33,252 nt of DNA from assembly GCA_015063895.1 (NCBI GenBank), contig SVTG01000003.1:1-33252 (forward strand), given 5' to 3'. Under the pieces are notes generated by a model. That model saw only the letters and a list, made by a program, of their open reading frames with translations, made no database searches and was not told where the DNA came from. The DNA is from Oscillospiraceae bacterium (GTDB taxonomy: Bacteria; Bacillota; Clostridia; Oscillospirales; CAG-272). Position 1 is the first letter of the stretch; every line of letters starts with the position of its first letter. This document shows, one piece after another, positions 2,445 through 28,257 of this stretch. The translations under genes and the position numbers were made by a program.

Positions 2445-4355
2445 TCATTTTTTGCGCAGAATGCGCGAGCTGTTGAGCAGCACGGCAAAGGCGCCGAAGT
2501 TGTGCAGCACCGTGCCCGCCAATGCGCTGATCACGCCAAAGGCAGAAAGCGTCATCATCACTGCTGTGATGCCAATAGACAAAACGAGATTCTGATAAAT
2601 GACACGTCTGGTCTCACACGCAAGCGACACCACAAACGGTATGTTCATCAAATTATTGTTCATCAGCGCAATATCGGCCGAATCGATGGCAAGATCGGAA
2701 CCCATCGCACCCATGGCGATGCCGACGTCGGCCTCGCGCAGGATCAGGGCATCGTTGATGCCGTCACCTATAGCGAGAACGTTATGTGCCTCACCCGACA
2801 CGGTCTGCAAATGCGCCAGCTTATCCTCGGGCAGGAGCCGTGCGTGCACCTCGTCAAGCCCTACGGCCTCACCGATCGCAAGGGCGGGCTCCTCACGGTC
2901 ACCCGTCAGCATCACGGTGCGCTCGGCACCGAGCGCGCGCAGCTGCGCCACACAAGCGGCAGCATTTTCACGCACCGTATCGTTAAAGCAAAGCGCACCC
3001 AGCAGCACGCCGTCACGCGACACGTAGCTGACGCTCCCCGCCGCACTTTCGGGAAAATTCTCGGGGATCGCGATACCAAGACCGCAAAGCCACTCACAGC
3101 GGCCAAAGCGGAACACCGTCTTCCCGTCGTCAGCGACACCCTCAACACCGCCGCCCGAGATCTCACGAATATCGGACATCGGGGCATATTCCTCGTGCTC
3201 GGTAGCAGCGCTGACCGCACGCGACACAGGGTGATTGGAGCCGACTGCCAGAGCGGCGGCACCCAAAAGCAGCTCACGCTCCCCTATCTCGCCAAAGGGC
3301 AGGACCTCGTCAAGCGACAGCTCGCCGCAGGTCACCGTACCGGTCTTATCGAAGACCACGGTATCGATCTCGGTCAGCTCCTCAATAAATTTGGAGTTTT
3401 TGATCAGAATACCGCGTTTGGTGGAGACCGAGAGGGCAGCGATCATCGGTGCCGAGCTCACCAGCATCTGTCCGCAGGGGCATGACACCACAAGAATGGC
3501 GATCGCTTTGGCAATATCGGCGCTGATCAGCGCCACGGCACCGGCAACTGCCAGCACAAAGGGGATATAATAGCCAAGAAAACGGTCAGTGAGGCGCGAT
3601 TCGGGCACCGAGATACCCTCGGACTCCTCAAGGACCTTCAGGATCTTAGAAAAAGAGGTGTCCACATGCTCGCGTGCCACGCGTACCACAATGCGGCCCG
3701 TGAGGTTCACGGTGCCCGCATATACGGTATCGCCCACAGCGGCTCTGGCGGGCTGGGGCTCACCGGTCAAGGACTTTTGGTCAATATCGGTCTCACCCAA
3801 CAGCACCACACCGTCAATCGGGATACCCGCACCGGGCTTGATCACGATCTCCTGCCCCACGTGCAGATCCTTGACGTCCACCTCTCGCTCGGTGCCGTTT
3901 TCAAGCAGGATCGCCGTTGTTTGCTGCATCTTTTTTAAGCCCTCGATCACGTCGCGACCGCCCATGATGCTGCGCTCCTCCAAAAGGTGCACAACGTTTA
4001 AGATCAGGGGGATCAAAAGGGCAAGGATCAGTTCACGGTTAAAGACGCACGCGATCACGGCAATGCCCACGAGAATTTCCATGGCATTGGTCAGATTTTT
4101 TGTAAAAATACCCTTCAGCCCCGCCACCAGCACGGGCACGCCCTCAATGAGCACACCGATAAAATATAAGAGCTGCGGAACGATCGCATGCTGCCCCTTT
4201 AAAACGTAGGTGTAAAAAAGTCCGCAGGCAAGGCACGTAAGGGTGATCACACCGCAAATAATATCACGCGTCAGCTTCTTACGGCCAAGATCGGTGAGAT
4301 TATCGCGCGAAAGTGCCTCGAGGCTGTTACGGCCCATATTATCAATATTTTCCAT
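2445..4355 (-). CDS. P-type (P1B-like) cation-transporting ATPase with atypical CPCG motif
   Basis: 636-residue membrane ATPase. Visible motifs are the actuator TGE (197-199), the phosphorylation site DKTGT starting at Asp336, HP at 375-376 as in heavy-metal pumps, MLTGD, and hinge GDGIND (530-535). The transmembrane ion motif is SCPCG at about 291-295, where metal pumps usually have CPCA; the hinge continues ALIL where DAPAL is usual; the last helix has HNFG...NSSRIL. There is no N-terminal heavy-metal-associated (CxxC) domain. I chose the ATG at 4355, not the longer frame from 4397, because GGGAGG lies just upstream and the longer version overlaps the previous gene. It follows three SPFH genes at 13-nt spacing. 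The transported ion cannot be stated. Confidence 0.9.
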   Translation of the reverse strand: MENIDNMGRNSLEALSRDNLTDLGRKKLTRDIICGVITLTCLACGLFYTYVLKGQHAIVPQLLYFIGVLIEGVPVLVAGLKGIFTKNLTNAMEILVGIAVIACVFNRELILALLIPLILNVVHLLEERSIMGGRDVIEGLKKMQQTTAILLENGTEREVDVKDLHVGQEIVIKPGAGIPIDGVVLLGETDIDQKSLTGEPQPARAAVGDTVYAGTVNLTGRIVVRVAREHVDTSFSKILKVLEESEGISVPESRLTDRFLGYYIPFVLAVAGAVALISADIAKAIAILVVSCPCGQMLVSSAPMIAALSVSTKRGILIKNSKFIEELTEIDTVVFDKTGTVTCGELSLDEVLPFGEIGERELLLGAAALAVGSNHPVSRAVSAATEHEEYAPMSDIREISGGGVEGVADDGKTVFRFGRCEWLCGLGIAIPENFPESAAGSVSYVSRDGVLLGALCFNDTVRENAAACVAQLRALGAERTVMLTGDREEPALAIGEAVGLDEVHARLLPEDKLAHLQTVSGEAHNVLAIGDGINDALILREADVGIAMGAMGSDLAIDSADIALMNNNLMNIPFVVSLACETRRVIYQNLVLSIGITAVMMTLSAFGVISALAGTVLHNFGAFAVLLNSSRILRKK

Positions 4356-4368
4356 AAAGGCCTCCCCG

Positions 4369-5313
4369 TCAAGGACTGATGACAATCTTGTTGTCACCGT
4401 TTTGCACCACGTATACCTTTTTCAGGCGCTCCATAAAGCTGATCGCACGCGCAGAATAGATTCTCGTCTTCACCACGTCGGGATTGGCTTCGTACTCCTC
4501 CTTCACGCCCCAGAACTCGGCCATATCGGAGTTGGCAGCTGCCACCTTCAGGGCTTTGTCCGCATTGGCTGCGGCGATCAGGGAGGTCGCGTTCGATTGT
4601 GCGGCGGGAATCAGATTCTGGCTGTACTGTCTGGCGCGCTCGACGATCGTGGTTGCCTGCACGGTAGCGGAGTTGACGGTTTCGTAGACCTCGCGCACCT
4701 CCTCGGGCATAGCCACGTTTGTCAGCTCCACGGCCGTAAGAGTAATGCCGGCACCGATCGCCTGCAGCTTGGCATCGGCGCGTGTGAGCACCGCCGTGCC
4801 GTAAGCATCCTTACCGTCGGTCAGCAGCTTATCCACGTCAAACGAGGCCGCCTCCGACAGCATCGCGCCGCTGACAGCACAGTTGATCATAGAAGTGATA
4901 TCCTGTACGTATAAAGCATAGGCCACAGGGTCGGAGATCACGTATTTGACCGAAGCCGATACCACAGCCACATTCTGGTCACCCGTGATCACGTATCCGC
5001 CGCCCGAGGTGGGTACGGCGCCGTTGGGATCGGTATAGTGTGTGGTGATGCTCTGCTCCATCACACTGCCCGTCGGCACCATCACGACCTCGTCAATAAT
5101 ATAGGGGAAGGCAAACATAAGCCCCGGCTCATGCACCTGCTCCTCATAGCTATCCCCTACCAGTCGCCCGAAGCGCAGCACCACGGCAACGTTGCCGCTT
5201 TCTACCACGCGCAGGCCCGAGAAGAAGATGCCGACAACCACAAGCCCTACCAAAAGCAAAAAGTATTTGGTCACGGTTTCAAGAACGTCGGCAAACAAGG
5301 TTTTTTGTTTCAT
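4369..5313 (-). CDS. SPFH/band-7 membrane protein, HflK-like
   Basis: 314-residue protein with an N-terminal membrane anchor (about residues 13-33) followed by an SPFH domain beginning VVESGNVAVVLRFG and the EPGL...FPYII turn typical of HflK/stomatin proteins. An alanine-rich helical region follows (about 215-270), then an HflK-like tail. In known systems HflK and HflC form a large membrane cage that modulates the FtsH protease; no ftsH is present here. The ATG at 5313 is chosen because AAGGAG lies 7 nt upstream; the longer frame would overlap the preceding gene. Spacing is 10 nt from the HflC-like gene and 13 nt to the ATPase, so cotranscription is nearly certain. A glycine-rich insert near residues 105-113 is unusual. 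Confidence 0.85.
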   Translation of the reverse strand: MKQKTLFADVLETVTKYFLLLVGLVVVGIFFSGLRVVESGNVAVVLRFGRLVGDSYEEQVHEPGLMFAFPYIIDEVVMVPTGSVMEQSITTHYTDPNGAVPTSGGGYVITGDQNVAVVSASVKYVISDPVAYALYVQDITSMINCAVSGAMLSEAASFDVDKLLTDGKDAYGTAVLTRADAKLQAIGAGITLTAVELTNVAMPEEVREVYETVNSATVQATTIVERARQYSQNLIPAAQSNATSLIAAANADKALKVAAANSDMAEFWGVKEEYEANPDVVKTRIYSARAISFMERLKKVYVVQNGDNKIVISP

Positions 5314-5323
5314 AGCGTTCTCC

Positions 5324-6436
5324 TTATGGCATCGTAATACCGTTTTGCGTAGCGGCATCATCGATCAAGGCCGCCACGGCGTTGATCAGCGCCTCGCGAT
5401 CGGTTGCGTCAAGCTTAGTGAGAATATACGTGAGGTCGTTGATCACCGTCTTATCGCCCTCGTATTCCATGTACTTAGAGTACTCGGTGAGGATATTGAA
5501 GGGATACTCATTCGCCTTTACCACCAGGATCGTCGAGCTGTTGACCGACGACACGACGGTATCGAGGTTCTTGAGGAACTTGTAAAGCTCGATATTGGCA
5601 GCCTGTGCATCGGCATAGATCTTAGCCACAGCCGTTTCGGTCTCAGCCTTGATCTTAGCCGCCTCGGTCGTACCCTGCCCCACGATCTCGGCCGCCTCGG
5701 TATCGGCATCGGTCGTGATCTTGTTGGCCTCCTTCTCGGCATTGGCAAGGATAATGTCGATATCCTTTTCACGGTCGGCACGCATCTGCTCAAACACGGC
5801 CTCCAGATTATTATCGGGCAAGGACAGACGCAAAATGCTCACGTCAACGATCTCAATACCATAATTCGCCAGACAGTTCTCGCGCACACGGGTAAAAATC
5901 TCGTTCTGGATCTCGTCGATCTTGATCTTTTCCTTTTCAAGCGATACCAGAGACGTCAGCTCGTATCCGCCAAGCGTTGAGTTGGTGGCACTGGAGATCT
6001 GCGCCTTGATATACGAATCGGTGGCGCCCTGCGCACCTACGCTGTTATGATAGAGAACGGGGTCGGCGATCTGCCACACCACGTAGGATTGCAAAATGAT
6101 ATTGCGCTTGTCCTTAGTGGTAGTCTCCAGCTTATTGGATTCCAGCGTAACCAAGCGGTTATCGTAGGAAACAACGCTTTCAAAGGGCCAGGGGAGCTTG
6201 AAATAAAGCCCCGCCTCCGTGGTCTGCTCGCGCACCGCGCCAAAGCGCAGCACCACAGCACAGCTACCCTCGCGCACCTGGTAAGTAAAGCCGAACCAGA
6301 AAAGCACCACAAGCACCACGGCGGCCGTCAGATATTTGGCAATGCGGCCAAACCACACGCCCTTTTCCTTCGCCTTATCAGGCGTCTTTGCCGCCTCAAG
6401 CGACTTGCTTTTTTGATCTTTTATCTTTTTACTCAT
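5324..6436 (-). CDS. SPFH/band-7 membrane protein, HflC-like
   Basis: 370-residue protein with a charged Lys-rich N-terminus, one membrane segment (about 30-48) and an SPFH domain. HflC-type signatures include VREGSCAVVLRFGAV, GLYFKLPWPF, the YDNRLVTLE stretch, and VVDVSILRLSLP-like text (here IVDVSILRLSLP) before a long Ala/Glu/Lys-rich coiled coil (about 215-275). The tail ANEYPFNILTEY resembles the HflC C-terminus. ATG at 6436 has GAGGTG 6 nt upstream; an in-frame GTG at 6445 is possible but poorly placed. It lies 10 nt after the large SPFH gene and 10 nt before the HflK-like gene. It is likely to hetero-oligomerise with its neighbours, an inference from HflKC. Confidence 0.87.
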   Translation of the reverse strand: MSKKIKDQKSKSLEAAKTPDKAKEKGVWFGRIAKYLTAAVVLVVLFWFGFTYQVREGSCAVVLRFGAVREQTTEAGLYFKLPWPFESVVSYDNRLVTLESNKLETTTKDKRNIILQSYVVWQIADPVLYHNSVGAQGATDSYIKAQISSATNSTLGGYELTSLVSLEKEKIKIDEIQNEIFTRVRENCLANYGIEIVDVSILRLSLPDNNLEAVFEQMRADREKDIDIILANAEKEANKITTDADTEAAEIVGQGTTEAAKIKAETETAVAKIYADAQAANIELYKFLKNLDTVVSSVNSSTILVVKANEYPFNILTEYSKYMEYEGDKTVINDLTYILTKLDATDREALINAVAALIDDAATQNGITMP

Positions 6437-6446
6437 TGTATTCACC

Positions 6447-8237
6447 TCAATCGTACTGATTCGTCACAGAACCAATGTTGCCGATATAAATATTCTCCTG
6501 GTTGATGCCGTCACCGACGATCACCAGCTTGGCGCCCGAATAAGCCTCGGTGATCGCCTGCATGTATTTGTAGTAACGGTATTCGTCGGAGTAGGCGTTA
6601 TCTGCCTCCACGCTCGCCATAAACTCCGCCACAGAGGCTCTGGCCGCAGCGATGCTTTCGTGCTTGGTGATATTGGCCACCGCCAGCTCACTGTCGTAAT
6701 CGATCCACGCCCACGCCAGGCGCTCACCTGCATACGCCTCGGCATCCAGGATCAGCTGCCCTGCCTCGATCTCGGCGCTGATCATCGCCTGATACGCATC
6801 GGCGATCTCCACAGGCGGATGAATGCTTTCCAGCACCACGTTTACCACCTCAAGGCCCGTTTGGTACCGTGTCAGCACCTCGGTCAGTTCTGCGGCAAAG
6901 TCTGTGGCAAAGGCCACGCGGTCGGTCGCCAGCATCGCATCAAGATCACTGGTGATCGTGCGTGCGGTAATAATTTCGTAAGAAGCCGCACTCATCAGGA
7001 GCTCGGGCGAGCTGCAATTCGTCAGATACGCGCGCAGATCCTTGATGCGGTACATCACACGGAGGTTGACCGACACCAATTCGTTGCCGCCGCCAAGAAG
7101 CAAGCGATATTCCTCGCCGCCGTGCGCCTCGGTCCAGATATTGTCGGCATCACCCTCGGCAATGTAGCCCACCGTCATTTTATTGACTGTGCCCGTATCA
7201 TAGACCTCTACGGTGTCAAAGGGCCACGGAAGCGTCAGATGCAATCCGGGGGCAAGCGTTTCCTCGCGCAGCTCACCAAAGCGGTAGTGCGCACCCTCCT
7301 GGTGCGACTCGATCATCACGACTCCCGTCACGCCCCACAAAAGGAGCACCGACATCAGCACCGCGTAAGGAATGGCTTTTTTGATCATCTGTATGCTCCA
7401 GAGCGAGCGCATACTGATGCCTGTATTCTTTTCAAGATACGTCACGATCCCAAGATCGCCGCCCTCCACACCGGGGGCAGGTGCCGAGACCTCGGGGGCC
7501 ACCTGAAGCTCGCGGCGCACCAGCACTACGAAAAGCGAAATAAAGGTAAACACGGTCTGATAGGCAAACAGTACGCCGAGCAAAACGGTCAACCACCTTG
7601 AAAAATCGTAGATGCCAAGCAGCGCCAGCATCACGGTCACCGCCGTCAGCAAAACGCCCAGGCGTGCCAGTGCAAAGGCACTTTGCATATTGCGCAGCAG
7701 CGCCGCGCCGTACCTTACCTCAACGTCGGGCTCGCCCTCCCCCGCTTCCGGCATACGGTGCTTACACCACTTGCCAAACACGATAAAGAGCACGAAAAGC
7801 GCCGCCAGTAAGACAACGGTGAAATAATCAAGTCTGCCCTTATAGGAAATATTTTTCAGCGTCAGCCAGAAAAACACGTTACAGCCAAGCGTCAGTGCTA
7901 CGATACCGCAGGCAAGCAGCGCTGCACGGTGATGGCGGATCGCGCCAAAAAGACGGGCTATCTGTTTTTTACAAAAGGCCATGGCGCGCGCACGGCGCGT
8001 GGTCGCCTCGGACGAGGCGCCCGAAGCCGCCGTCTGCTTTTCACGCGGCAGGGGCACCAGCAGCAGCAAATTGATCGCCGCGGGCAATACAAAAATCAAA
8101 GCAAGCAGAAGCAAGGACGCGTAATAGGTCTGATAGCGTAACACCACCAGCAGTGCGGCCGCCGCCAGCAAGCAAAGCAGCGACGCGAGTACCACGAACC
8201 TTGCCCCCGACGTGCGCGAACGGGGTTTTTCACTCAT
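6447..8237 (-). CDS. Large SPFH-domain protein with multi-helix N-terminal membrane region
   Basis: 596-residue protein. The first 290 or so residues hold about six hydrophobic segments in pairs (starting ARFVVLASLLCLLAAAALLV) with a short charged linker. One further membrane helix (about 285-305) leads into an SPFH domain with YRFGELREETLAPGLHLTLPWPFDTVEVYD and HflK-like MYRIKDLRAYL. The usual long coiled coil is short. Ordinary HflK has only one membrane helix, so the polytopic N-terminus is an unusual addition. ATG at 8237 is selected by TGGAGG 6 nt upstream. It is the promoter-proximal gene of the SPFH/ATPase operon. The SPFH part is confident; the role of the membrane extension is unknown. 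Confidence 0.83.
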   Translation of the reverse strand: MSEKPRSRTSGARFVVLASLLCLLAAAALLVVLRYQTYYASLLLLALIFVLPAAINLLLLVPLPREKQTAASGASSEATTRRARAMAFCKKQIARLFGAIRHHRAALLACGIVALTLGCNVFFWLTLKNISYKGRLDYFTVVLLAALFVLFIVFGKWCKHRMPEAGEGEPDVEVRYGAALLRNMQSAFALARLGVLLTAVTVMLALLGIYDFSRWLTVLLGVLFAYQTVFTFISLFVVLVRRELQVAPEVSAPAPGVEGGDLGIVTYLEKNTGISMRSLWSIQMIKKAIPYAVLMSVLLLWGVTGVVMIESHQEGAHYRFGELREETLAPGLHLTLPWPFDTVEVYDTGTVNKMTVGYIAEGDADNIWTEAHGGEEYRLLLGGGNELVSVNLRVMYRIKDLRAYLTNCSSPELLMSAASYEIITARTITSDLDAMLATDRVAFATDFAAELTEVLTRYQTGLEVVNVVLESIHPPVEIADAYQAMISAEIEAGQLILDAEAYAGERLAWAWIDYDSELAVANITKHESIAAARASVAEFMASVEADNAYSDEYRYYKYMQAITEAYSGAKLVIVGDGINQENIYIGNIGSVTNQYD

Positions 8238-8251
8238 AGGTATACCTCCAT

Positions 8252-8267
8252 ACACAAGCGCTTGTGT
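8252..8267. promoter_or_regulatory. Perfect 16-bp palindrome, candidate LacI-family operator
   Basis: ACACAAGCGCTTGTGT is a perfect palindrome with the AAGCGCTT core that LacI/GalR-type regulators and CcpA cre sites share. It lies in the leader of the SPFH operon, between the promoter and the ribosome binding site, where a bound repressor would act as a roadblock. It could instead form an RNA hairpin near the ribosome binding site. Confidence 0.55.
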
Positions 8268-8327
8268 CAAATCAACAAAGACGAAATCAAAAAAACGGGA
8301 CTATTTGACATTAAAATGTATAGTTTT

Positions 8328-13526: not shown

Positions 13527-16500
13527 TTAAATCAATCGTCTTTTGCGGAATATAAACCACCACAATGCAAATCCACCGCCAACCGCAGTGACTCCACCGC
13601 CCGCCGATGCTATTGCCGCAATTTCGATATTATCGAGTTGCGGGATTTCTTCAGTTTCTTTCTGACCGCACACACAACTCCTTTCTTTTATGCCGGCCTC
13701 TTTTGTAGTGGCCTCCTTAACAACAGCCCACTCACCGTACTGGTGAGCGTCAGATTTCTCAAGAGACTGTAATATTTCTGCTCCGCAATCCACACACGTG
13801 TAGGTTTTCACACCCTCGGCGGTATGCGTCGCAGGGGTTGTGATCTCACCGTAGTTCCAAGCGTGGGCAACGTGCTCCACCTCACCGCAGGCGCAGCTGC
13901 GCTTATGATGTGTTGCACTATCCTTTTGCCATTCACCAAAGCTATGCGCAGGCGTCTTATCCACAGCCTCAGTCCTCGTTTCGCCGCAATCCACACACGT
14001 GTAGGTTTTCACACCCTCGGCGGTATGCGTTGCAGGAGTTGTGATCTCACCGCTGTTCCAAGCGTGGGCAACGCGCTCCACCTCACCGCAGGCGCAGTCA
14101 CGCTTATGATGTGTTGCACTATCCTTCTGCCACCCACCAAAGCTATGTACAGGCGTCTTATCCACAGCCTCAGTCCTCGTTTCGCCGCAATCCACACACG
14201 TGTAGGTTTTCACACCCTCGGCGGTATGCGTCGCAGGAGTTGTGATCTCGCCGCTGTTCCAAGCGTGGGCAACACGCTCCACCTCACCGCAGGCGCAGTC
14301 ACGCTTATGATGTGTTGCACTATCCTTCTGCCACCCACCAAAGCTATGTACAGGCGTCTTATCCACAGCCTCAGTCCTCGTTTCGCCGCAGTCTACACAG
14401 GTGTAGGTCCTAACACCTTCCGTGGTATGTGTTGCAGGAGTTGTGATCTCACCCACTCCCCAAATATGTGCTTTCATTTGCAGAATATATCCGCAATCAA
14501 CACACACCTTTTTATGATGCATTTCAGAGCTTACAAGCCACTCACTACTTGCGTGATCTGCATATACCACATGCCCGCATACACATTCCTTTTTATGCAC
14601 CATAGTGGGATCTTGTTCAAACACCGACCATTCGCCGTGTATATGCTCGGCATACACAATATCACCGCATTCGCAAGTCTTTTGATGCTGTTCCTCGGAA
14701 TATATCTCCCAAACGCCATAATTATGCTCGGGGATTCTTTCCACGACCTCGGTCTTAGTTTTCGTGCAATCTACACACGTGTAGGTTTTCACGCCCTCAA
14801 CGATATGCGTAGCAGGCGTTGTGATCTCGCCGTCATTCCAGGAATGCGCGCCAACCTCGCTCGCGCCACAAGCGCATTCGCGCTTATGTTGCATATCATT
14901 TTTCGAGTTCCACGTACTCCAATTATGCGCCTCATATTTCACCGCTCCACACTCGCAACGCTGTACGTGCTGTGCCTCATCATACTGCTGTGGCGCTTCG
15001 TACACGTGCCCGGAGTACATCTCGTGTCCGCACAGGCACACCTTCTTATGCTGCGTTTCCGTATAAGGCTCCCACTCACCGTAACTGTGCAGCTCATATA
15101 TCACAGCGCCGCATTCACACGAGGCCGCATGATGAGATGCGGAGTGTATTTCCCATTCGCCAAAAAGATGATCGGAATAGATCACACACCCCTCGTCACA
15201 GGATTGCTGATACAAAATATCTCCGTGCTTTTCCCAGGCGCCCTCGTGCTCATGCACGGAATACACATCATAAGAAACGCCTTGATAAGTCACCGCGTCC
15301 ACAAAAGGATAGGCCTCGCGCAACATTTGCGGCACCTCCAAGTCCTGTGCCACACAAATGGTATTAGTTTGACCTAAAAATGAAACACTTACCCTTTCCT
15401 GCTCCGCGGCCTGCAGCATTGCAGCTGACTGTACATACACAGTATTTAAGCTTGTACAACCGATAAAAGCGCCATAGCCCAAGTCACTTAATTGGGCGGG
15501 AAATATTATCACACGCAGATTAACACAATCATAAAACGCGCCATAGGCAATATATGATAAAATACTATCGGGCGCAAAACCAACCTTCCACAATGAAGTA
15601 CAACCATAAAAAGCGTCTTCTTGTATTCGTTGCACTTGCCGAGGAAATGATAAAACCTGCAAGGACTCACACAAGGCAAATCCTCTTGCCATAATCCGCA
15701 TAGGCTGCTCGCCACTCTCAAAGCTGATACTTTCAAGACCTATACAAGCCTCAAATGCACGAAATGATATCTCATTCACAGTTGCAGGAATTGCAATATT
15801 TGTTAATTCCTCACAACCGTAAAAAGCATAGGCCCCGATCCTTATTACACTTCCATTGCTTGGAATAATGCTGTTTTCACAACCAAGCAGCAAGGTTTTT
15901 TCCGCGATATCCACAAGACAATTCGCATCACCTTGATACACCGTATTGCCCGCACTAACGTTTATCTGCTCAACGCGGCTGCAGCCACGAAAAGCAGTAG
16001 GATGAATCTCGACCACGGAAGCAGGTATACTCACCTGTAAAAGCCCTGCACAATTATAAAAAGCATATTCTCCTATTGCCGTTACACCTGCGGGGATAAT
16101 ACTGTTTTGGCACCCGAGCAGCAATGTTCCACTATTGGTTATCAAGCAGTTATCAATAGACCGATAAACGGGGTTGTGCGCATTGACGGTTATGCTCGAC
16201 AAGGATCGGCACCCCCACCAAGCAGAAGCATCAATTTGCACCGCATTCAAGGAAAGTGCAATTTCTTGTAAAGCAACGCAACCGTGAAAGGCGTAGCCCT
16301 CCAAGCATACCAAGCCATACGGCACAGCAAAATCAGAAAGCGCGACGCATCCCCAAAAGGCAGCATACCCAATAAAATCAACGCCACTCGGCAAAACAAT
16401 ATCCGACAACATTACGCAATCGGAAAAGGCATATGCTTCAATGGTACGCAATGCACTTTGTGACTCGAAAACGACCCGCACAAGCTGCGCACATTCAGAA

Positions 16501-17348
16501 AAAGCATACGTGTCAATCCGTTGCACACTTGCAGGAATAATGATCTCCGTCAACTCAGAACAACCATAAAAGGCTTTAGCGCCAATTGACTTTACGCTAC
16601 CGTTTGTTGGAATAATTGCATTTTTACTTCCCCAAACAAGCGTACCGCTTTCCTTTTCGATCAAGCACGTGCCGTTTCCGCCATACAGCGCCTCGTCCAA
16701 TTCCCAATAATAGCCTCGCACCGATACGCTGATCAAATTGCTGCAATTAAAAAAAGAAGACACGTTAATATGGCGAATAGTAAGAGGCAAGGATATGGAA
16801 ATAAGCGCTTCACAATCAGCAAAAGCATAATTCGCTATGCCAACCGTATTCTCTGACAGTACAATACTTTGTACGTCTTTACTGCAACCAATTGCCCAGC
16901 CATTTACATAATCAACATCGCTAGAAGTCCATATCAAGCCATCACAGCCCAAAAATGCATCTCTGCCGATGTAAGTAACCGTTTCGGGAATTTCAATGGC
17001 GGTCAAATTTTTAAAGCCTTGAAAGGCACCGTCGGCAATAAAGGTAACGCCACTTTGAAGAACGACCGTTTTTACACAAAATTTGTCTACTGAGTTTCTC
17101 CACGATTTATATGAAATAGCACGCATACCACAATCATTGAAAATCACCAGCTCACCATCGTCACTCAGAGACCAATGCATCAATTTCTGGGGAACTGCGG
17201 GCCGCTCCTCCCCTTCCTCTTCTTCAACGCTTTCATCAGGCGGCATAGGCGGCTCATCTGCCACATCAGACTCAAGTGCCATCACGGGAATACTTAAAAT
17301 CACACACATTGCTGCGACTAATGCAATCAATAATAAAACCCGTTTCAT
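13527..17348 (-). CDS. BspA-type leucine-rich-repeat surface protein with Cys-rich C-terminal repeats
   Basis: 1,273-residue exported protein. A signal peptide (MKRVLLLIALVAAMCVILS) is followed by an acidic Pro/Glu-rich stretch, then a long BspA-like (LRR_5) region of about 23-residue units with AFxGCxxL...IPxxVxxIGxxAF patterns to about residue 680. After this come modules pairing CxCG or CVDCG with HxxG..W, including near-identical 67-residue copies. The end is one hydrophobic helix followed by FRKRRLI. No LPxTG sorting motif is visible, so a membrane anchor is likely. Related proteins act in adhesion; no function is proven here. ATG at 17348 has GGAGGTG 7 nt upstream, in preference to 17384. 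Its DNA looks more AT-rich than its neighbours, which may indicate transfer. It has its own consensus promoter and terminator. Confidence 0.9.
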   Translation of the reverse strand: MKRVLLLIALVAAMCVILSIPVMALESDVADEPPMPPDESVEEEEGEERPAVPQKLMHWSLSDDGELVIFNDCGMRAISYKSWRNSVDKFCVKTVVLQSGVTFIADGAFQGFKNLTAIEIPETVTYIGRDAFLGCDGLIWTSSDVDYVNGWAIGCSKDVQSIVLSENTVGIANYAFADCEALISISLPLTIRHINVSSFFNCSNLISVSVRGYYWELDEALYGGNGTCLIEKESGTLVWGSKNAIIPTNGSVKSIGAKAFYGCSELTEIIIPASVQRIDTYAFSECAQLVRVVFESQSALRTIEAYAFSDCVMLSDIVLPSGVDFIGYAAFWGCVALSDFAVPYGLVCLEGYAFHGCVALQEIALSLNAVQIDASAWWGCRSLSSITVNAHNPVYRSIDNCLITNSGTLLLGCQNSIIPAGVTAIGEYAFYNCAGLLQVSIPASVVEIHPTAFRGCSRVEQINVSAGNTVYQGDANCLVDIAEKTLLLGCENSIIPSNGSVIRIGAYAFYGCEELTNIAIPATVNEISFRAFEACIGLESISFESGEQPMRIMARGFALCESLQVLSFPRQVQRIQEDAFYGCTSLWKVGFAPDSILSYIAYGAFYDCVNLRVIIFPAQLSDLGYGAFIGCTSLNTVYVQSAAMLQAAEQERVSVSFLGQTNTICVAQDLEVPQMLREAYPFVDAVTYQGVSYDVYSVHEHEGAWEKHGDILYQQSCDEGCVIYSDHLFGEWEIHSASHHAASCECGAVIYELHSYGEWEPYTETQHKKVCLCGHEMYSGHVYEAPQQYDEAQHVQRCECGAVKYEAHNWSTWNSKNDMQHKRECACGASEVGAHSWNDGEITTPATHIVEGVKTYTCVDCTKTKTEVVERIPEHNYGVWEIYSEEQHQKTCECGDIVYAEHIHGEWSVFEQDPTMVHKKECVCGHVVYADHASSEWLVSSEMHHKKVCVDCGYILQMKAHIWGVGEITTPATHTTEGVRTYTCVDCGETRTEAVDKTPVHSFGGWQKDSATHHKRDCACGEVERVAHAWNSGEITTPATHTAEGVKTYTCVDCGETRTEAVDKTPVHSFGGWQKDSATHHKRDCACGEVERVAHAWNSGEITTPATHTAEGVKTYTCVDCGETRTEAVDKTPAHSFGEWQKDSATHHKRSCACGEVEHVAHAWNYGEITTPATHTAEGVKTYTCVDCGAEILQSLEKSDAHQYGEWAVVKEATTKEAGIKERSCVCGQKETEEIPQLDNIEIAAIASAGGGVTAVGGGFALWWFIFRKRRLI
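13790..14465 (-). repeat. 201-bp in-frame tandem repeats inside the LRR protein gene
   Basis: The same segment recurs with exact 201-bp spacing: equivalent bases fall at 13801, 14002, 14203 and, more diverged, 14404. The copies starting near 14002 and 14203 differ by only a few bases, mostly silent. Each encodes 67 residues with a CACGE module and a TYTCVDCGE module. The period keeps the reading frame, so copy number can change without breaking the gene. Confidence 0.9.
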
Positions 17349-17400
17349 ATATTTCACCTCCGCAAACCGAAATAACGCTTTCACTATGTTATTTGATGCA

Positions 17401-22934: not shown

Positions 22935-24368
22935 TTAGTATTTTTTCAATTCTTCCTCAAGCAAACGATTGATGATCACGGGATTGCCCTTGCCCTGCGT
23001 CTTGCCCATCACCACGCCGACGATCGACTTGGCAGCAGCAGGCTTACCGCGCTTCACGTCAGCCACGGCCTTGGGGTTGGCAGCCACGGCTTCAGCCACC
23101 AGCTTGCCAAGCAGCGCCTCGTCATTGATCTGTGCAAGGCCCCTTTCCTCTACCAATGCCTTCGGGGAGGCGTCGGTCTCAAAAAGCTCCTTGATCAGCT
23201 TTTTCGCCGTGGAGCTGTTGATCACGTCATCACCCACCAGCGTTGCCAGCTCGCCGAGATGCACGGCCGATACGGGACAGGTAAAGCTTTCGCTCTCAAT
23301 CAGGCGCATAAACTCCGAGATCAGCAGGTTGGCCGCAAGCTTGGGGTGCTTGGTGGTGGCGGCAGCAGCCTCAAAATAGTCGGCCATTGCCTTATCCGAG
23401 GTCAGCACCTCACCGTCATAAGCGGTAAGACCGTACTTCTCCATATACGCCTTTTTACGTGCGTCGGGCAGCTCGGGAATTTCAGCACCAAGCGCCTTGA
23501 TCGCCGCATCGCTGAGCTCAATGGGCGGCAGATCGGGATCGGGGAAATAACGGTAATCGTTGGCATTTTCCTTTGAGCGCATCGTGTAGGTCTTACCCGT
23601 GGCAGGATCAAAGCGGCGCGTTTCCTGCACGATCTCCTCGCCCGCCTCAATGGCATCTACCTGACGCTTATACTCGTATTCGATGGCCTTTACGATAAAC
23701 TGGAAGGAGTTGAGGTTCTTCATCTCGGTACGCGTACCGAACTTCGTCTGGCCTACCTTACGCACCGACAGGTTCACGTCGCAGCGAAGCGACCCCTCCT
23801 GCATCTTACAGTCGGAAACGCCCGTATAAAGGATAATGGCGCGCAGCTTCTGAAGATAAGCCTTAGCCTCCTCAGCAGAGCGGATATCGGGCTCGGACAC
23901 GATCTCAATGAGTGGCACACCGCAACGGTTACAGTCGATCATCGTGCCGTGCTTATCGTCATGCACCAGCTTGCCTGCGTCCTCTTCAATGTGGATACGG
24001 GTAATGCCGATGCGCTTCGCACCCTCCTCGGTCTCTACGTCAAGCCAGCCGTGCTCGCAAAGCGGCAGATCGTACTGCGAGATCTGGTAAGCCTTAGGCA
24101 GGTCGGGATAGAAATAATTTTTTCTATCCTCCTTAGAATAATTGGCAATTTTACAGTTGGTGGCAAGGCCTGCCTTCACGGCGTATTCTACCACCTTTTT
24201 GTTAAGGACGGGCAACGTGCCAGGATAACCCATGCAAACGGGGCAGCACTGCGTATTGGGCTCAGCACCAAAGGTCGTGGGGCAGGAGCAAAAGATCTTG
24301 GTCTTGGTCTTCAGCTCAACGTGGACCTCAAGACCGATCACCATTTCATAACCCTTATAAAGCGCCAT
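22935..24368 (-). CDS. gatB: Aspartyl/glutamyl-tRNA amidotransferase subunit B
   Basis: 477-residue subunit that binds mischarged Asp-tRNA(Asn) or Glu-tRNA(Gln) and activates it with ATP for amidation. It shows GYEMVIGLEVHVELKTKTKI, CSCPTTFGAEPNTQCCPVCMGYPGTLP, YFYPDLPKAYQISQY and the C-terminal YqeY-type tail domain ending VMGKTQGKGNP. Paired cysteines in the N-terminal part are the zinc-site type seen in GatB. The start overlaps the gatA stop (TAATG), and GGAGGTG lies just upstream within gatA. Full length. The last gene of the T-box-controlled operon. Confidence 0.97.
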   Translation of the reverse strand: MALYKGYEMVIGLEVHVELKTKTKIFCSCPTTFGAEPNTQCCPVCMGYPGTLPVLNKKVVEYAVKAGLATNCKIANYSKEDRKNYFYPDLPKAYQISQYDLPLCEHGWLDVETEEGAKRIGITRIHIEEDAGKLVHDDKHGTMIDCNRCGVPLIEIVSEPDIRSAEEAKAYLQKLRAIILYTGVSDCKMQEGSLRCDVNLSVRKVGQTKFGTRTEMKNLNSFQFIVKAIEYEYKRQVDAIEAGEEIVQETRRFDPATGKTYTMRSKENANDYRYFPDPDLPPIELSDAAIKALGAEIPELPDARKKAYMEKYGLTAYDGEVLTSDKAMADYFEAAAATTKHPKLAANLLISEFMRLIESESFTCPVSAVHLGELATLVGDDVINSSTAKKLIKELFETDASPKALVEERGLAQINDEALLGKLVAEAVAANPKAVADVKRGKPAAAKSIVGVVMGKTQGKGNPVIINRLLEEELKKY

Positions 24369-25816
24369 TATCTTGCACCTCCCATATCGTCCTCAAGCGC
24401 TGCACCCACACGGTACAGCAGCGCCTCGCTGAAGGGCTTGCCCATCAGCTGCAGTCCTACGGGCATACCGCCCTCACCCACACCGCAGGGCAGCGCGAGT
24501 GCGGGGATCCCCGCTACGTTCACGGGCACGCTGTATGCGTCACCCATATACATTTCAAGCGGATTTTGGCTCTTTTCGCCAAGCTTGTAAGCAACCGTCG
24601 GTGCCACGGGCGACAAAATAACGTCACACTTTTCAAGCACGCGGTCATAATCGGCACGCACCAGTGCACGCACCTGCAGCGCCTTTTTGTAATAAGCATC
24701 GTAATAGCCCGAGGAAAGTGCGAAGGTGCCCAGCATAATGCGGCGCTTGACCTCAGCGCCAAATCCTTCGGAGCGGCTCTTCTTATAAAGCTCACCGATA
24801 TCCTCAAACTCGGCGGTGCGGTAACCGTAGCGTACGCCGTCAAAGCGCGCGAGATTGGAGGAGGTCTCGGCACTCGAGATCACGTAATAAGCGGCAAGCG
24901 CGTGGTCGATCGCGGGCATGGAGACCTCAACGATCTTCGCACCCAGTTTCTCATAGCGCGCAGCAGCGGCAAGCACGGCTTCCCTCACGTCGGGGGAAAT
25001 ACCCTCCCCAAAAAACTCCTTCGGCACACCGATCACAAGACCCTTGACGCCCTTGCCTATCTCGGCACCGAAATCGCCGTAAACGCGCTCGACTGAGGTC
25101 GCATCGCGCTTGTCGTGCCCTGCGATGACATTCAGCACCAAAGCATTATCGCGCACGGTGTGCGTCAAGGGGCCGATCTGATCAAGCGAGGAGGCAAACG
25201 CCACAAGACCGTAGCGCGACACCGTGCCGTAGGTCGGCTTCATACCGACCACGCCGCAAAATGCCGCAGGCTGACGGATCGATCCGCCCGTATCGGAGCC
25301 AAGCGTATACGCCGCCTCAAAGGCAGCCACAGCCGCAGCCGAGCCACCCGAGCTGCCACCCGGCACACGCGTGAGATCAAGGGGGTTGTGCGTGACCTTA
25401 ACGGCCGAGTTCTCGGTGGTGGAGCCCATTGCAAACTCGTCCATATTCAGCTTGCCGAGCATGACAAACCCGGCCTTCTTCAAGCGCTCTACCACGTGCG
25501 CGTCATAGGGCGGCACGTAGTCGGCCAGCATACGCGAGGCACAGGTGGTGGCCACGCCCTTGGTGCAGATATTGTCCTTGACACCCATAGGGATACCCGC
25601 CAAGGGTGAAAGCGTTTCGCCTGCCGCGCGCTGCTTATCGACGGCGATCGCCATATCCAGCGCAAGACGTGCATCGGTCGACACGTAAGCACCCACACGG
25701 GGCTCGTTTTTCTCAATAGAGGCAACGTATGCCTTGGTAAGCTCGGCGGCACTGACCTTTCTCGCGGCAAGCGCAGCACCAAGCTCGGATAAATTCATTT
25801 TCAACAAATCACTCAT
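24368..25816 (-). CDS. gatA: Aspartyl/glutamyl-tRNA amidotransferase subunit A
   Basis: 482-residue amidase-signature subunit that frees ammonia from glutamine. It has the Lys in GIPMGVKDNIC (Lys80) and the Ser-cisSer region GGSSGGSAAAVAA with TLGSDTGGSIRQPAAFCG, giving the Ser-Ser-Lys triad. Ammonia passes to GatB through a tunnel in the GatCAB complex. It begins 3 nt after the aspS-gatC stop, with the ribosome binding site GGAGGG lying in the last codons of that gene, so expression is coupled. No separate gatC lies nearby because GatC is fused to the upstream synthetase. Confidence 0.97.
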   Translation of the reverse strand: MSDLLKMNLSELGAALAARKVSAAELTKAYVASIEKNEPRVGAYVSTDARLALDMAIAVDKQRAAGETLSPLAGIPMGVKDNICTKGVATTCASRMLADYVPPYDAHVVERLKKAGFVMLGKLNMDEFAMGSTTENSAVKVTHNPLDLTRVPGGSSGGSAAAVAAFEAAYTLGSDTGGSIRQPAAFCGVVGMKPTYGTVSRYGLVAFASSLDQIGPLTHTVRDNALVLNVIAGHDKRDATSVERVYGDFGAEIGKGVKGLVIGVPKEFFGEGISPDVREAVLAAAARYEKLGAKIVEVSMPAIDHALAAYYVISSAETSSNLARFDGVRYGYRTAEFEDIGELYKKSRSEGFGAEVKRRIMLGTFALSSGYYDAYYKKALQVRALVRADYDRVLEKCDVILSPVAPTVAYKLGEKSQNPLEMYMGDAYSVPVNVAGIPALALPCGVGEGGMPVGLQLMGKPFSEALLYRVGAALEDDMGGAR

Positions 25817-25819
25817 AGC

Positions 25820-27910
25820 TTAACCCTCCACAACACGGGGCACGGTCACGTAGCCCTCTGCTTTGGTTTTGGCATTGGCAAGCAGCTCGTCACGCGTGCA
25901 GGTACACACGGGCTCGTCCTCGCGCAATACGTTTTTGAGCGGCACCACGTAGGTGGCCTCACCCACACCCTCGGTATCAACGGCCGAGAGCTGATCGGCA
26001 AAGCCGATGATGGCAGCCATATCTGCTGCAACGCGTGCCTTTTCCTCACCCGACAGCGACAAGCGTGCAAGATCTGCAATGCGCTCAACGTCCACGGTAG
26101 GAGCAGCCTTTTTACCGGCCGACTTACCGCCCTCGCTGCCGCCCTCCAACGCCTTGCCAAGACCCAGGATCTCAAGCTGCGCGGGATCGACGTGCGTAGG
26201 TGCATCGGTCATAGGGCAGGAGGCATCCTTGATCTTGGGAAACGCGATGACCTCGCGCAGGCTGTCAGCCCCGACCATAAGCATAACGAAGCGATCAAGA
26301 CCGAAGGCAAAGCCCGCGTGGGGGGGCGTACCGTAACGGAAGGCACCGACCATAAAGCCAAAGCGATCCTCGATCTCCTCCTTTGAGAAGCCAAGCGCCT
26401 CAAACATGACGTTTTGCACGTCACGGTTGTGAATACGAACAGAGCCCGAGCCCAGCTCCACACCGTTGAGGACCACGTCGTAGGCCTGTGCGCGCACGCG
26501 TGCCTTGTCGGTCAGCAGATACTGCACGTCCTCGGGATAAGGCATGGTGAAGGGGTGGTGCGTGGCGACAAAGCGCTCCTCCTCCTCGGAGTATTCAAAC
26601 TGCGGGAAGTCGGTCACGAACAGGAACTTATACTCGTCCTTGTGGCGCAGCCCCAGCATATCCGCCACGGTAAGACGCAGGGCACCCAGCACCTTGCGCA
26701 CCGTATTCAGCTTATCTGCCGAGAACAGGATAAAATCACCGGGCTTGGCGCCAAGACGGTCAAGCAAAGCCTGAAAGCCCTCGTCGCTGAAGTATTTCGG
26801 GAGAATGGAATTGACCGTGCCGTCGGCACGAAGCAGGATCCACGCCATACCCTTCGCACCAAAGGTGATGGCGGTTTCGGTCAGATTTTCAATATCGGTA
26901 CGGGCAAATTTTTCACCGGCGCCCGGCACGCAGATCGCGCGCACCACGCCGCCCTGCTTTGTCACCGAATTGAATACCGAAAACGTTGAAGCGGCGGCAA
27001 GGTCGGTCACGTCAACGATCGGCAATTCGAAGCGCAGGTCAGGCTTGTCGGAGCCGTATTTATCCATAGCCTCGTGCCAGGTGATGCGCTGAAAGGGCTC
27101 CTTGATATCAACGCCCTTCACGTGCAGGAACAGGTCCTTGAACATGCCCTCCAGATGCTGCAAAACGTCCTCCTGCTCCACAAAGGACATTTCCATATCC
27201 ACCTGTGTAAATTCGGGCTGACGGTCGGCACGCAGATCCTCGTCACGGAAGCATCGCGCCACCTGATAATAACGGTCAATACCGCCCACCATCAGGAGCT
27301 GCTTATAGATCTGCGGAGACTGCGGCAACGCATAAAAGCTGCCGGGATGCACACGAGAGGGCACAAGATAGTCACGGGCACCCTCGGGTGTTGATTTGCA
27401 GAGCATGGGAGTCTCCACACACAAAAAGCCCTGTTTGGTGAGATACTCCTCAACCGTGCGCTGGATAAAGGCACGGGTCTTTAAGTTATGGTACATGGAG
27501 GGACGGCGCAGATCGATATAGCGGTATTTCAGGCGCAGATCCTCACGCGTATTCTGATTATCCTCGGGCGAGAAGGGCAGCTGATCACACTGCGAAAGCA
27601 GCTCAACCTCGTCAGCCATCAGCTCAACGGTACCCGTGGCGATACGGGGATTGACCGTCTCGGCCGCACGCAGACGGATATTGCCCCACACCGAGATCAC
27701 CGACTGATTTTTTAAGCTCTCGGCCACGGCAAAGCCATCAGCCGACAGGTTTGCGGCATCAAACACCACCTGCACCACGCCCTCGCGGTCGCGCAGGTCG
27801 ATGAAGATAACACCACCCATATCACGCTTGTTAAGAACCCAGCCCGCCACCTGCTGTCTGGTGCCGATATGTGCCTCACGCACAAGGCCGCAATAGATCG
27901 TTCTTTTCAT
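25820..27910 (-). CDS. aspS: Aspartyl-tRNA synthetase fused to amidotransferase subunit GatC
   Basis: 696-residue fusion. Residues 1 to about 585 are a complete bacterial-type AspRS: OB-fold anticodon domain (GWVLNKRDMGGVIFIDLRDREG), class II motif 2 (CFRDEDLRADRQPEFTQ), the GAD insertion domain (about 300-420) and motif 3 (GFAFGLDRFVMLM). A Gly/Ser/Lys linker (about 588-605) leads to a complete GatC of about 91 residues (VDVERIADLARLSLSGEEK ... REDE ... AEGYVTVPRVVE). The protein should charge tRNA(Asp), probably also mischarge tRNA(Asn), and join GatA and GatB. Position 31, usually His in nondiscriminating and Leu in discriminating enzymes as I recall it, is Met here, so discrimination cannot be read. 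AAGGAG is 8 nt before the start. Led by a T-box. Confidence 0.95.
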   Translation of the reverse strand: MKRTIYCGLVREAHIGTRQQVAGWVLNKRDMGGVIFIDLRDREGVVQVVFDAANLSADGFAVAESLKNQSVISVWGNIRLRAAETVNPRIATGTVELMADEVELLSQCDQLPFSPEDNQNTREDLRLKYRYIDLRRPSMYHNLKTRAFIQRTVEEYLTKQGFLCVETPMLCKSTPEGARDYLVPSRVHPGSFYALPQSPQIYKQLLMVGGIDRYYQVARCFRDEDLRADRQPEFTQVDMEMSFVEQEDVLQHLEGMFKDLFLHVKGVDIKEPFQRITWHEAMDKYGSDKPDLRFELPIVDVTDLAAASTFSVFNSVTKQGGVVRAICVPGAGEKFARTDIENLTETAITFGAKGMAWILLRADGTVNSILPKYFSDEGFQALLDRLGAKPGDFILFSADKLNTVRKVLGALRLTVADMLGLRHKDEYKFLFVTDFPQFEYSEEEERFVATHHPFTMPYPEDVQYLLTDKARVRAQAYDVVLNGVELGSGSVRIHNRDVQNVMFEALGFSKEEIEDRFGFMVGAFRYGTPPHAGFAFGLDRFVMLMVGADSLREVIAFPKIKDASCPMTDAPTHVDPAQLEILGLGKALEGGSEGGKSAGKKAAPTVDVERIADLARLSLSGEEKARVAADMAAIIGFADQLSAVDTEGVGEATYVVPLKNVLREDEPVCTCTRDELLANAKTKAEGYVTVPRVVEG

Positions 27911-27939: not shown

Positions 27940-27983
27940 AAAAAAATAACGCCCCTGAAAGTGTCAAAAACACCTTCGGGACG
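27940..27983 (-). terminator. T-box-controlled intrinsic terminator
   Basis: On the minus strand CGTCCCGAAGGTGT pairs with ACACTTTCAGGGGCG with one bulged A and G-T wobbles, followed by TTATTTTTTT. It lies 30 nt before the aspS start. Confidence 0.85.
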
Positions 27984-28215
27984 AAAGACAAGCTTCCGCG
28001 GTACCACCCGCATTCGAGAAAACTCCTCACGGACACTTTTGAAAATGTCCATCGGCTGTAACGTGCCGCCACGCCCAAGTCTACTGCCGCGGCCGTGCCG
28101 CAGGTTCGGTCAGGTGCTCCGAAATGTTCTTTCATCGCGCACCCATACCGTTTCTCAGCACCAACGGCTCTCTGTGATAGCTCTCGCGACTACTTTTTTC
28201 CATCATAGCATTTAT
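27940..28215 (-). promoter_or_regulatory. T-box riboswitch leader of the aspS-gatC/gatA/gatB operon
   Basis: The minus-strand leader contains the T-box sequence GGGTGGTACCGCGG (27995-28008), the Stem I AGAGAG bulge motif, and a distal loop CCGTT-GGTGCTGAGA-AACGG (28150-28169). It ends in a terminator that the T-box region can replace with an antiterminator. Uncharged tRNA binding should allow readthrough. The candidate specifier is AAC (Asn) at 28126-28128, by comparison with the common pattern in which the specifier is followed by A, pyrimidines and CGGAG. A GAC (Asp) lies about 17 nt further on, so the choice needs a fold. Confidence 0.88.
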
Positions 28216-28228
28216 ATTATGTACGGAT

Positions 28229-28257
28229 ATTTTAGCACTATTCCCCTTTCCTGTCAA
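28229..28257 (-). promoter_or_regulatory. Sigma-A promoter for the T-box operon
   Basis: TTGACA (28252-28257), 17-bp spacer, TAAAAT (28229-28234) on the minus strand, just upstream of the T-box leader. Confidence 0.83.

Follow-up and report, generated by a model that had tools for sequence, protein, structure and literature searches.

Bacteria that load tRNA(Asn) indirectly have to keep Asp-tRNA(Asn) off the ribosome, and it is difficult to test how far they need a physical complex for this. To our knowledge, every bacterium studied so far uses separate proteins for aspartate loading and for amidation. A stretch of 33,252 nucleotides from an Oscillospiraceae bacterium of the gut (contig SVTG01000003.1 of assembly GCA_015063895.1; the whole stretch is called the window here) raises the question of whether the two steps can be tied together in one polypeptide, and what such a tie would be good for. 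In the original prediction, made from the letters of the window, the reading frame at 25820..27910 on the minus strand had been read as an aspartyl-tRNA synthetase (AspRS) that continues through a linker into GatC.

The stretch in question is a single unbroken ORF of 696 aa, and the claimed fusion has been borne out by profile searches, in which a complete bacterial AspRS, a linker of about 26 residues and a complete GatC follow one another. The AspRS part, of the bacterial type with GAD domain (26159..27910, minus strand; residues 1-584), is covered by TIGR00459 over residues 1-582 at 736 bits, gives separate matches to the class II core, the GAD insertion and the OB-fold (PF00152, PF02938 and PF01336), and matches AspRS chains in the PDB including 4wj3_M. 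The GatC part (25820..26080, minus strand, stop codon included; about residues 611-696) is matched by PF02686 at 65.5 bits, by the GatC chains 2df4_C and 4wj3_C, and by TIGR00135 over residues 607-695 at 83.8 bits against a cut-off of 47.1, which corresponds to model positions 5-93 of 93. Between them lies a linker rich in Gly, Ser, Lys and Ala (26081..26158, minus strand; about residues 585-610) with low AlphaFold confidence and without predicted secondary structure. In the AlphaFold monomer, which is of moderate confidence as a whole (pLDDT 70.9, from an alignment of 13 sequences), residues 556-604 fall below pLDDT 50 and residues 582-607 carry no secondary structure.

Both gatA and gatB, which had been claimed to follow the fusion directly, lie there on the same strand, and each scores above a family cut-off: gatA, encoding the amidase subunit (24368..25816, minus strand), reaches 620 bits with TIGR00132 against a cut-off of 481 and matches 2df4_A and 4wj3_A, and gatB (22935..24368, minus strand), which overlaps gatA by one base, contains PF02934 and PF02637 and scores over the cut-offs of NF004012 (666 bits) and TIGR00133 (582 bits). 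The absence of a stand-alone gatC from the operon has been confirmed as well, and according to the profile searches GatA, GatB and GatC are all encoded at the locus. The operon is headed by a T-box riboswitch leader (27974..28215, minus strand; RF00230, 106 bits against a gathering threshold of 93), whose specifier codon at 28126..28128 (minus strand) reads AAC, for Asn, in the context GAAC; it was taken from the column of the RF00230 alignment in which T-boxes carry their specifier. A hairpin followed by a T run (27940..27980, minus strand), read by eye, is the likely T-box terminator; the terminator search returned a shorter overlapping site, with one found against 0.6 +/- 0.7 in shuffles and thus not above chance. 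Just upstream of the T-box, the promoter search has given a promoter-like TTGACA-17-TAAAAT with an extended -10 element (28229..28257, minus strand), one of three found on both strands of the region against 0.7 +/- 0.9 in shuffles. Elsewhere in the window, three SPFH/Band_7 proteins stand in tandem beside a P-type ATPase-like protein (2445-8270, minus strand), and 13527-17384 (minus strand) encodes a likely surface protein of 1285 aa, in which six stretches of BspA-type leucine-rich repeats are matched.

What the operon is needed for depends on the other synthetases of the genome, which comprises 1.86 Mb in 36 contigs and is 93.2% complete, so that absences from it are not absolute. A second gatC, for which the original prediction had proposed to look, is not found: PF02686 matches the genome once at E <= 1, in the fused copy. 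The proposed look for asnS or glnS has come out divided, asnS not being found and glnS being found, with a GlnRS at 656 bits. The AsnRS model TIGR00457 gives nothing over its cut-off, and its weak matches below the cut-off are the fused AspRS, the second AspRS and a protein on contig C7, which we take to be probably LysRS. Because GlnRS is present, GatCAB is not needed for Gln-tRNA in this genome, and its use for that purpose here has been rejected; besides the fused operon, no other route to Asn-tRNA has been found in the 93%-complete assembly. The second AspRS is a free enzyme of 598 aa. A full-length AsnB-like protein is encoded too, and the fused pathway is therefore probably not the only source of asparagine. 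A tRNA(Asn) gene is absent from the 39 tRNAs of the assembly and from the matches of a pattern search, the latter absence being uninformative because a like pattern matched only 14 of 45 genomes.

The survey of AspRS-GatC fusions that had been suggested along with the prediction has found the arrangement conserved across many assemblies, with a full-length ORF in 21 genomes, the window's included, and in six further named ones. GatC occurs in 42 of the 196 sampled genomes of the window's family. Fourteen of these 42 carry a fusion of the clade to which the window protein belongs, called clade A (13 full-length, and that of G194 cut by contig ends), and one, G014, carries a fusion of a separate and distant AspRS lineage, clade B. 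An unfused clade-B synthetase gene, aspS2, is found in 12 of the 42, in 11 of them directly before gatC (that of G098 is cut by the contig start, and that of G050 sits on a different contig), and in the remaining 15 gatC occurs with no aspS2 of either clade. A free AspRS accompanies the fused one in 13 of the 14 family genomes with a clade-A fusion, and G076 (95% complete) shows the fused AspRS only, with no match to a free one. In a class-wide sample of 391 genomes, 264 of them with GatC, at least eight full-length fusions besides that of the window genome have been found among the matches listed (G257 and G378 in family f35; G389, G270, G572, G345 and G536 in f56; G502 in f20), and those of G224 and G410 are truncated where their contigs start. 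A scan of named genomes with six short peptides of the window protein has given 20 loci, ten of them fusions in MAGs of Clostridia or Oscillospiraceae; the record titles of seven of the ten point to samples from sheep, goat, roe deer or rabbit ('Lapin'), and four coincide with G037, G140, G183 and G572, which leaves the six additional assemblies counted above. An error of assembly or sequencing joining two genes, which the original prediction had named as its undoing, is ruled out, as the same kind of ORF recurs in many independent assemblies of several families; nothing has been found in support of such an artefact, and we give it a vanishingly small chance.

A tree built from 73 AspRSs unites the 24 clade-A fusions in a single group (100/100), apart from the 35 free AspRSs (100/99). 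The fusion of G014 groups with the ten unfused clade-B enzymes (100/100), either inside or beside them. Because G014 groups with unfused enzymes and apart from clade A, the fusion has, most simply, arisen at least twice, and the unfused clade-B genes are already arranged as aspS2-gatC. Clade A is found in four families, and its members from the window's family have been found not to be monophyletic (p-AU 0.009, from 21 rows with two long rows in play and with two fusions of unknown family left out). Transfer between families would fit this result, and it is not proven by it.

The regulation of the operon is conserved in a similar way. With RF00230, T-boxes are detected at 11 of the 16 gat loci in a first set and at 3 of the 12 in a second (the sets share three negative loci), and at none of the five loci with a free aspS or asnS. 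The specifier AAC is present in all 14 leaders read, from fused and unfused operons alike (the window's, ten of the 11 matches of one set and three of the other; three of the 14 belong to unfused clade-B operons). The preceding base gives an overlapping GAA, as GAAC, in ten of the 14, including the window's, and the other four keep AAC only. A simple T-box motif precedes the operon at 15 of 22 clade-A loci and at 9 of 11 clade-B loci, and it precedes neither of two free aspS genes; the seven clade-A loci without it include all five f56 loci tested. In G037 (L071:1777-2496), the T-box and the fusion gene are separated by an insert of about 600 bases, which contains palindromic repeats and a short ORF, MYPYNKKLVGNARALRKQ..., that is presumably DUF559-like; the insert is identical in L125, similar in L124 and partial in L129. 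A different insert with palindrome-like repeats, seen by eye, occupies the same place in L075 (G164).

Regarding the tRNA that the fused AspRS would serve, two signs have been read. His31 of the P. aeruginosa AspRS is implicated in the recognition of tRNA(Asn). At this position (P. aeruginosa numbering), Leu has been observed in 35 of 35 free AspRSs, as in E. coli AspRS and T. thermophilus AspRS1, His in 11 of 11 clade-B enzymes (partial G098 and G050 excluded), and Met in 24 of 24 clade-A fusions, the window's included, which thus does not carry the His of the P. aeruginosa ND-AspRS. Judged by alignment, the clade-A AspRS differs here from the discriminating references, by a residue that is absent from the references. 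The second sign is the tRNA itself, since the U1-A72 pair of tRNA(Asn) is recognised by the bacterial GatCAB (PMC4206432; PMC9976931). tRNA(Asn) has been sought in 45 genomes, 14 of which gave a match, and 17 of 19 loci yielded a tRNA(Asn) call from ARAGORN. U1-A72 is present in nine of nine clade-A genomes with such a call, all from f35, f56 and f20 and none from the window's family, and also in the clade-B genome G071 of the window's family. Among three genomes with AsnRS only, two have G1-C72 and one has U1-A72.

Scored as present at E <= 1e-60 in the 196 family genomes, AsnRS is missing in 20 of the 27 with aspS2 and gat genes and in 13 of the 169 others (Fisher p 2.9e-13, indicative only as the genomes are related), and it is present in all 15 other gat genomes of the family. 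The window's genus is represented by five sampled genomes: AsnRS is missing from the four that carry the fusion, and the fifth, G097, encodes AsnRS and a single AspRS but lacks GatC. Presence of the operon does not always mean loss of AsnRS, because AsnRS persists in 5 of the 14 family genomes with a clade-A fusion (G008, G076, G164, G056 and G063), so that it need not be replaced; it is also kept in 2 of the 12 unfused clade-B genomes. One of the five, G056, has a fused AspRS (L081:1100-3316) from which a conserved stretch corresponding to window residues 442-459 is missing, and this enzyme may therefore be inactive, as far as its sequence tells. Neither GatC nor AsnRS is found at the thresholds used in 13 of the 196 family genomes (G036, G075, G079, G086, G099, G106, G115, G134, G158, G168, G187, G192 and G195), which likely reflects incompleteness.

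GlnRS is present in all 14 clade-A genomes of the family. The three fused genomes of f35 have no GlnRS match and, among the matches listed, a free GatC in addition to the fused one. In G257 this second gatC starts a gatCAB of its own without aspS, and the f35 pattern fits a division of labour in which the fused set serves Asn and the free set Gln. Such a division is opposed by f56, where G270 and G536 have one GatC among the matches listed and no GlnRS match, so that the fused GatCAB may serve Gln too, or the assemblies may be incomplete. Other combinations of synthetase and gat genes have been encountered in the survey. The sole AspRS match of G042 (L107:2666-7735), a genome with AsnRS and GlnRS, is of the free (Leu31) type and stands directly before gatC, gatA and gatB. 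G047, G033 and G103 (L108-L110) have a free gatC, no TIGR00459 AspRS match at E <= 1e-50, and just downstream of gatB an AsnRS- or archaeal-AspRS-like ORF at 27-28% identity, possibly a third kind of synthetase-gat operon. In the clade-B operons (L085-L095), the GatA beside the unfused aspS2 is unusually short (367-460 aa, 29-34% identity to the window GatA), and most of these matches begin only at about residue 75-80 of the window GatA.

Taken as a whole, we consider it probable, with good confidence, that the operon encodes a dedicated tRNA-dependent route to asparagine, which takes the place of the missing AsnRS and whose first enzyme is tied covalently to the amidotransferase. The assignment to this pathway is strong, and a channelling of Asp-tRNA(Asn) through the fusion, which we infer, is plausible. 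According to a published account, GatC stabilises GatCAB and the ND-AspRS complex is considered to limit errors from Asp-tRNA(Asn); mycobacteria need tRNA(Asn) for this complex to form, and H. pylori has a protein, Hp0100, that permits assembly independent of tRNA (PMC8406222). With AspRS and GatC covalently joined, assembly would need neither tRNA(Asn) nor an Hp0100-like protein. In such a pathway, uncharged tRNA(Asn) would turn the operon on through the T-box, the free AspRS encoded elsewhere in the genome would charge tRNA(Asp), and the fused AspRS would load Asp onto tRNA(Asn). Since GatCAB is stabilised by its GatC subunit, GatA and GatB would be recruited by the fused protein, giving about (AspRS-GatC)2(GatA)2(GatB)2 around an AspRS dimer, a transamidosome that might assemble without tRNA or adaptor and amidate Asp-tRNA(Asn) at once.

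The main rival of this reading is that the fusion serves co-expression only, the stop codon between aspS2 and gatC having been lost with 1:1 synthesis as the result, and that the complex assembles through tRNA(Asn) as elsewhere, with no channelling. We regard this as quite possible, though on balance improbable. Since aspS2 lies directly before gatC in 11 of 12 unfused clade-B genomes and G014, a member of that lineage, is fused, stop loss is the simplest origin of a fusion, and a linker of variable sequence agrees with a join of this kind: in the 17 of 24 fusion genes that could be parsed by pattern (16 of clade A and G014, the other seven having escaped the pattern), linker length is 24-30 residues and the sequence is not conserved. 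Yet the fusion has been kept across a clade in four families and has arisen at least two times, and an in-frame ATG, which could restore a free GatC, is absent from all 17 parsed linkers; both observations speak against mere co-expression, and neither proves a function. An internal start yielding free GatC has accordingly been rejected as a candidate, with the note that some of these linkers have GTG or TTG and that a Met is present in the printed tail of four of the seven unparsed ones (G257, G378, G270 and RGIG4242). The same linkers bear on whether the polypeptide is cleaved there post-translationally into separate mature enzymes, for which their Lys-richness in most members and the predicted lack of structure in the window protein would be suitable; by eye, however, no conserved cleavage site is seen among the printed linkers, and we think cleavage very unlikely.

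Two further readings concern specificity. The fused AspRS might charge tRNA(Asp) only, with GatCAB serving Glu-tRNA(Gln), as position 31 is not the His of the P. aeruginosa ND-AspRS and many bacteria form Gln-tRNA by GatCAB (PMC4206432). Against this, the window genome has GlnRS and no AsnRS that could be found, it encodes a free AspRS with Leu31, and the T-box of the operon reads Asn, so that we give this reading hardly any weight. At the other end stands a wider claim, namely that clade A is an AspRS specific for tRNA(Asn), and more than one of relaxed specificity, whose GatC tail makes an obligate, tRNA-independent transamidosome that works as a single device for Asn-tRNA synthesis, and that AsnRS is displaced as the T-box-aspS-gatC-gatA-gatB cassette passes from one family of gut Clostridia to another. 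Such an enzyme would be for Asp what GluRS2, specific for tRNA(Gln), is for Glu. The odds of this claim are lowered by G076, which shows no free AspRS: were that lack genuine, its fused enzyme would have to charge tRNA(Asp) too. We hold the wider claim to be rather unlikely.

Among the known systems close to this one is the Asn-transamidosome of P. aeruginosa (PDB 4wj3, with ND-AspRS, GatCAB and tRNA-Asn), which shares with the window, known from sequence, a GAD-type AspRS, homologues of GatA and GatC and the two-step pathway. There, AspRS and GatC are separate chains, whereas in the window a second AspRS is placed in the gat operon and fused to GatC; in P. aeruginosa, one ND-AspRS serves both tRNAs. 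As to regulation, Clostridium acetobutylicum reportedly has T-box-controlled tRNA-dependent amidation with extra AspRSs and an extra GatCAB (Saad 2012), and a two-codon T-box is reported for it (Saad 2013). T-box control of the Asn route is thus shared, and GAAC in the window could be read as GAA or AAC; in our set only AAC is conserved (14/14, with GAAC in 10/14), and no fusion is mentioned in the available part of that literature. Joining of GatC to a neighbour through stop-codon loss has a parallel in a Mycobacterium smegmatis mutant with fused GatC-GatA, which was selected in the laboratory, showed raised mistranslation and had the C-terminus of GatC joined to GatA, whereas in the window the N-terminus of GatC is joined to AspRS (PMC7541841). 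A synthetase and GatC in one chain, like the window's, are found in chain C of PDB 3al0, the Gln-transamidosome of Thermotoga maritima, as GatC-linker-GluRS2, in the opposite order with GatC first and with a GluRS, for Gln. This chain is reportedly a construct engineered for crystallography, and by analogy it suggests that a transamidosome can accommodate a covalent tie. The same two domains in the same order as in the window define NCBIfam NF009460/PRK12820 (bifunctional AspRS/GatC), with which the window protein reaches 627 bits and seven further fusions reach 457-655, all falling well short of the cut-off of 1379, so that by this test the present fusions are not members. No published AspRS-GatC fusion has been found in the open literature covered, which takes in few subscription journals, as judged from listings and from passages of some of the articles. 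The natural covalent complex, the unfused operons of the same family and the congener with AsnRS provide matched sets for the effect of tethering on speed and fidelity, and the fusion points to an AspRS clade that differs from both reference states at a site linked to specificity. A covalent tie between a synthetase and GatC is therefore not wholly new, as NF009460 is named and the 3al0 chain exists; the fusion is best seen as the known two-step asparagine pathway in a covalent form.
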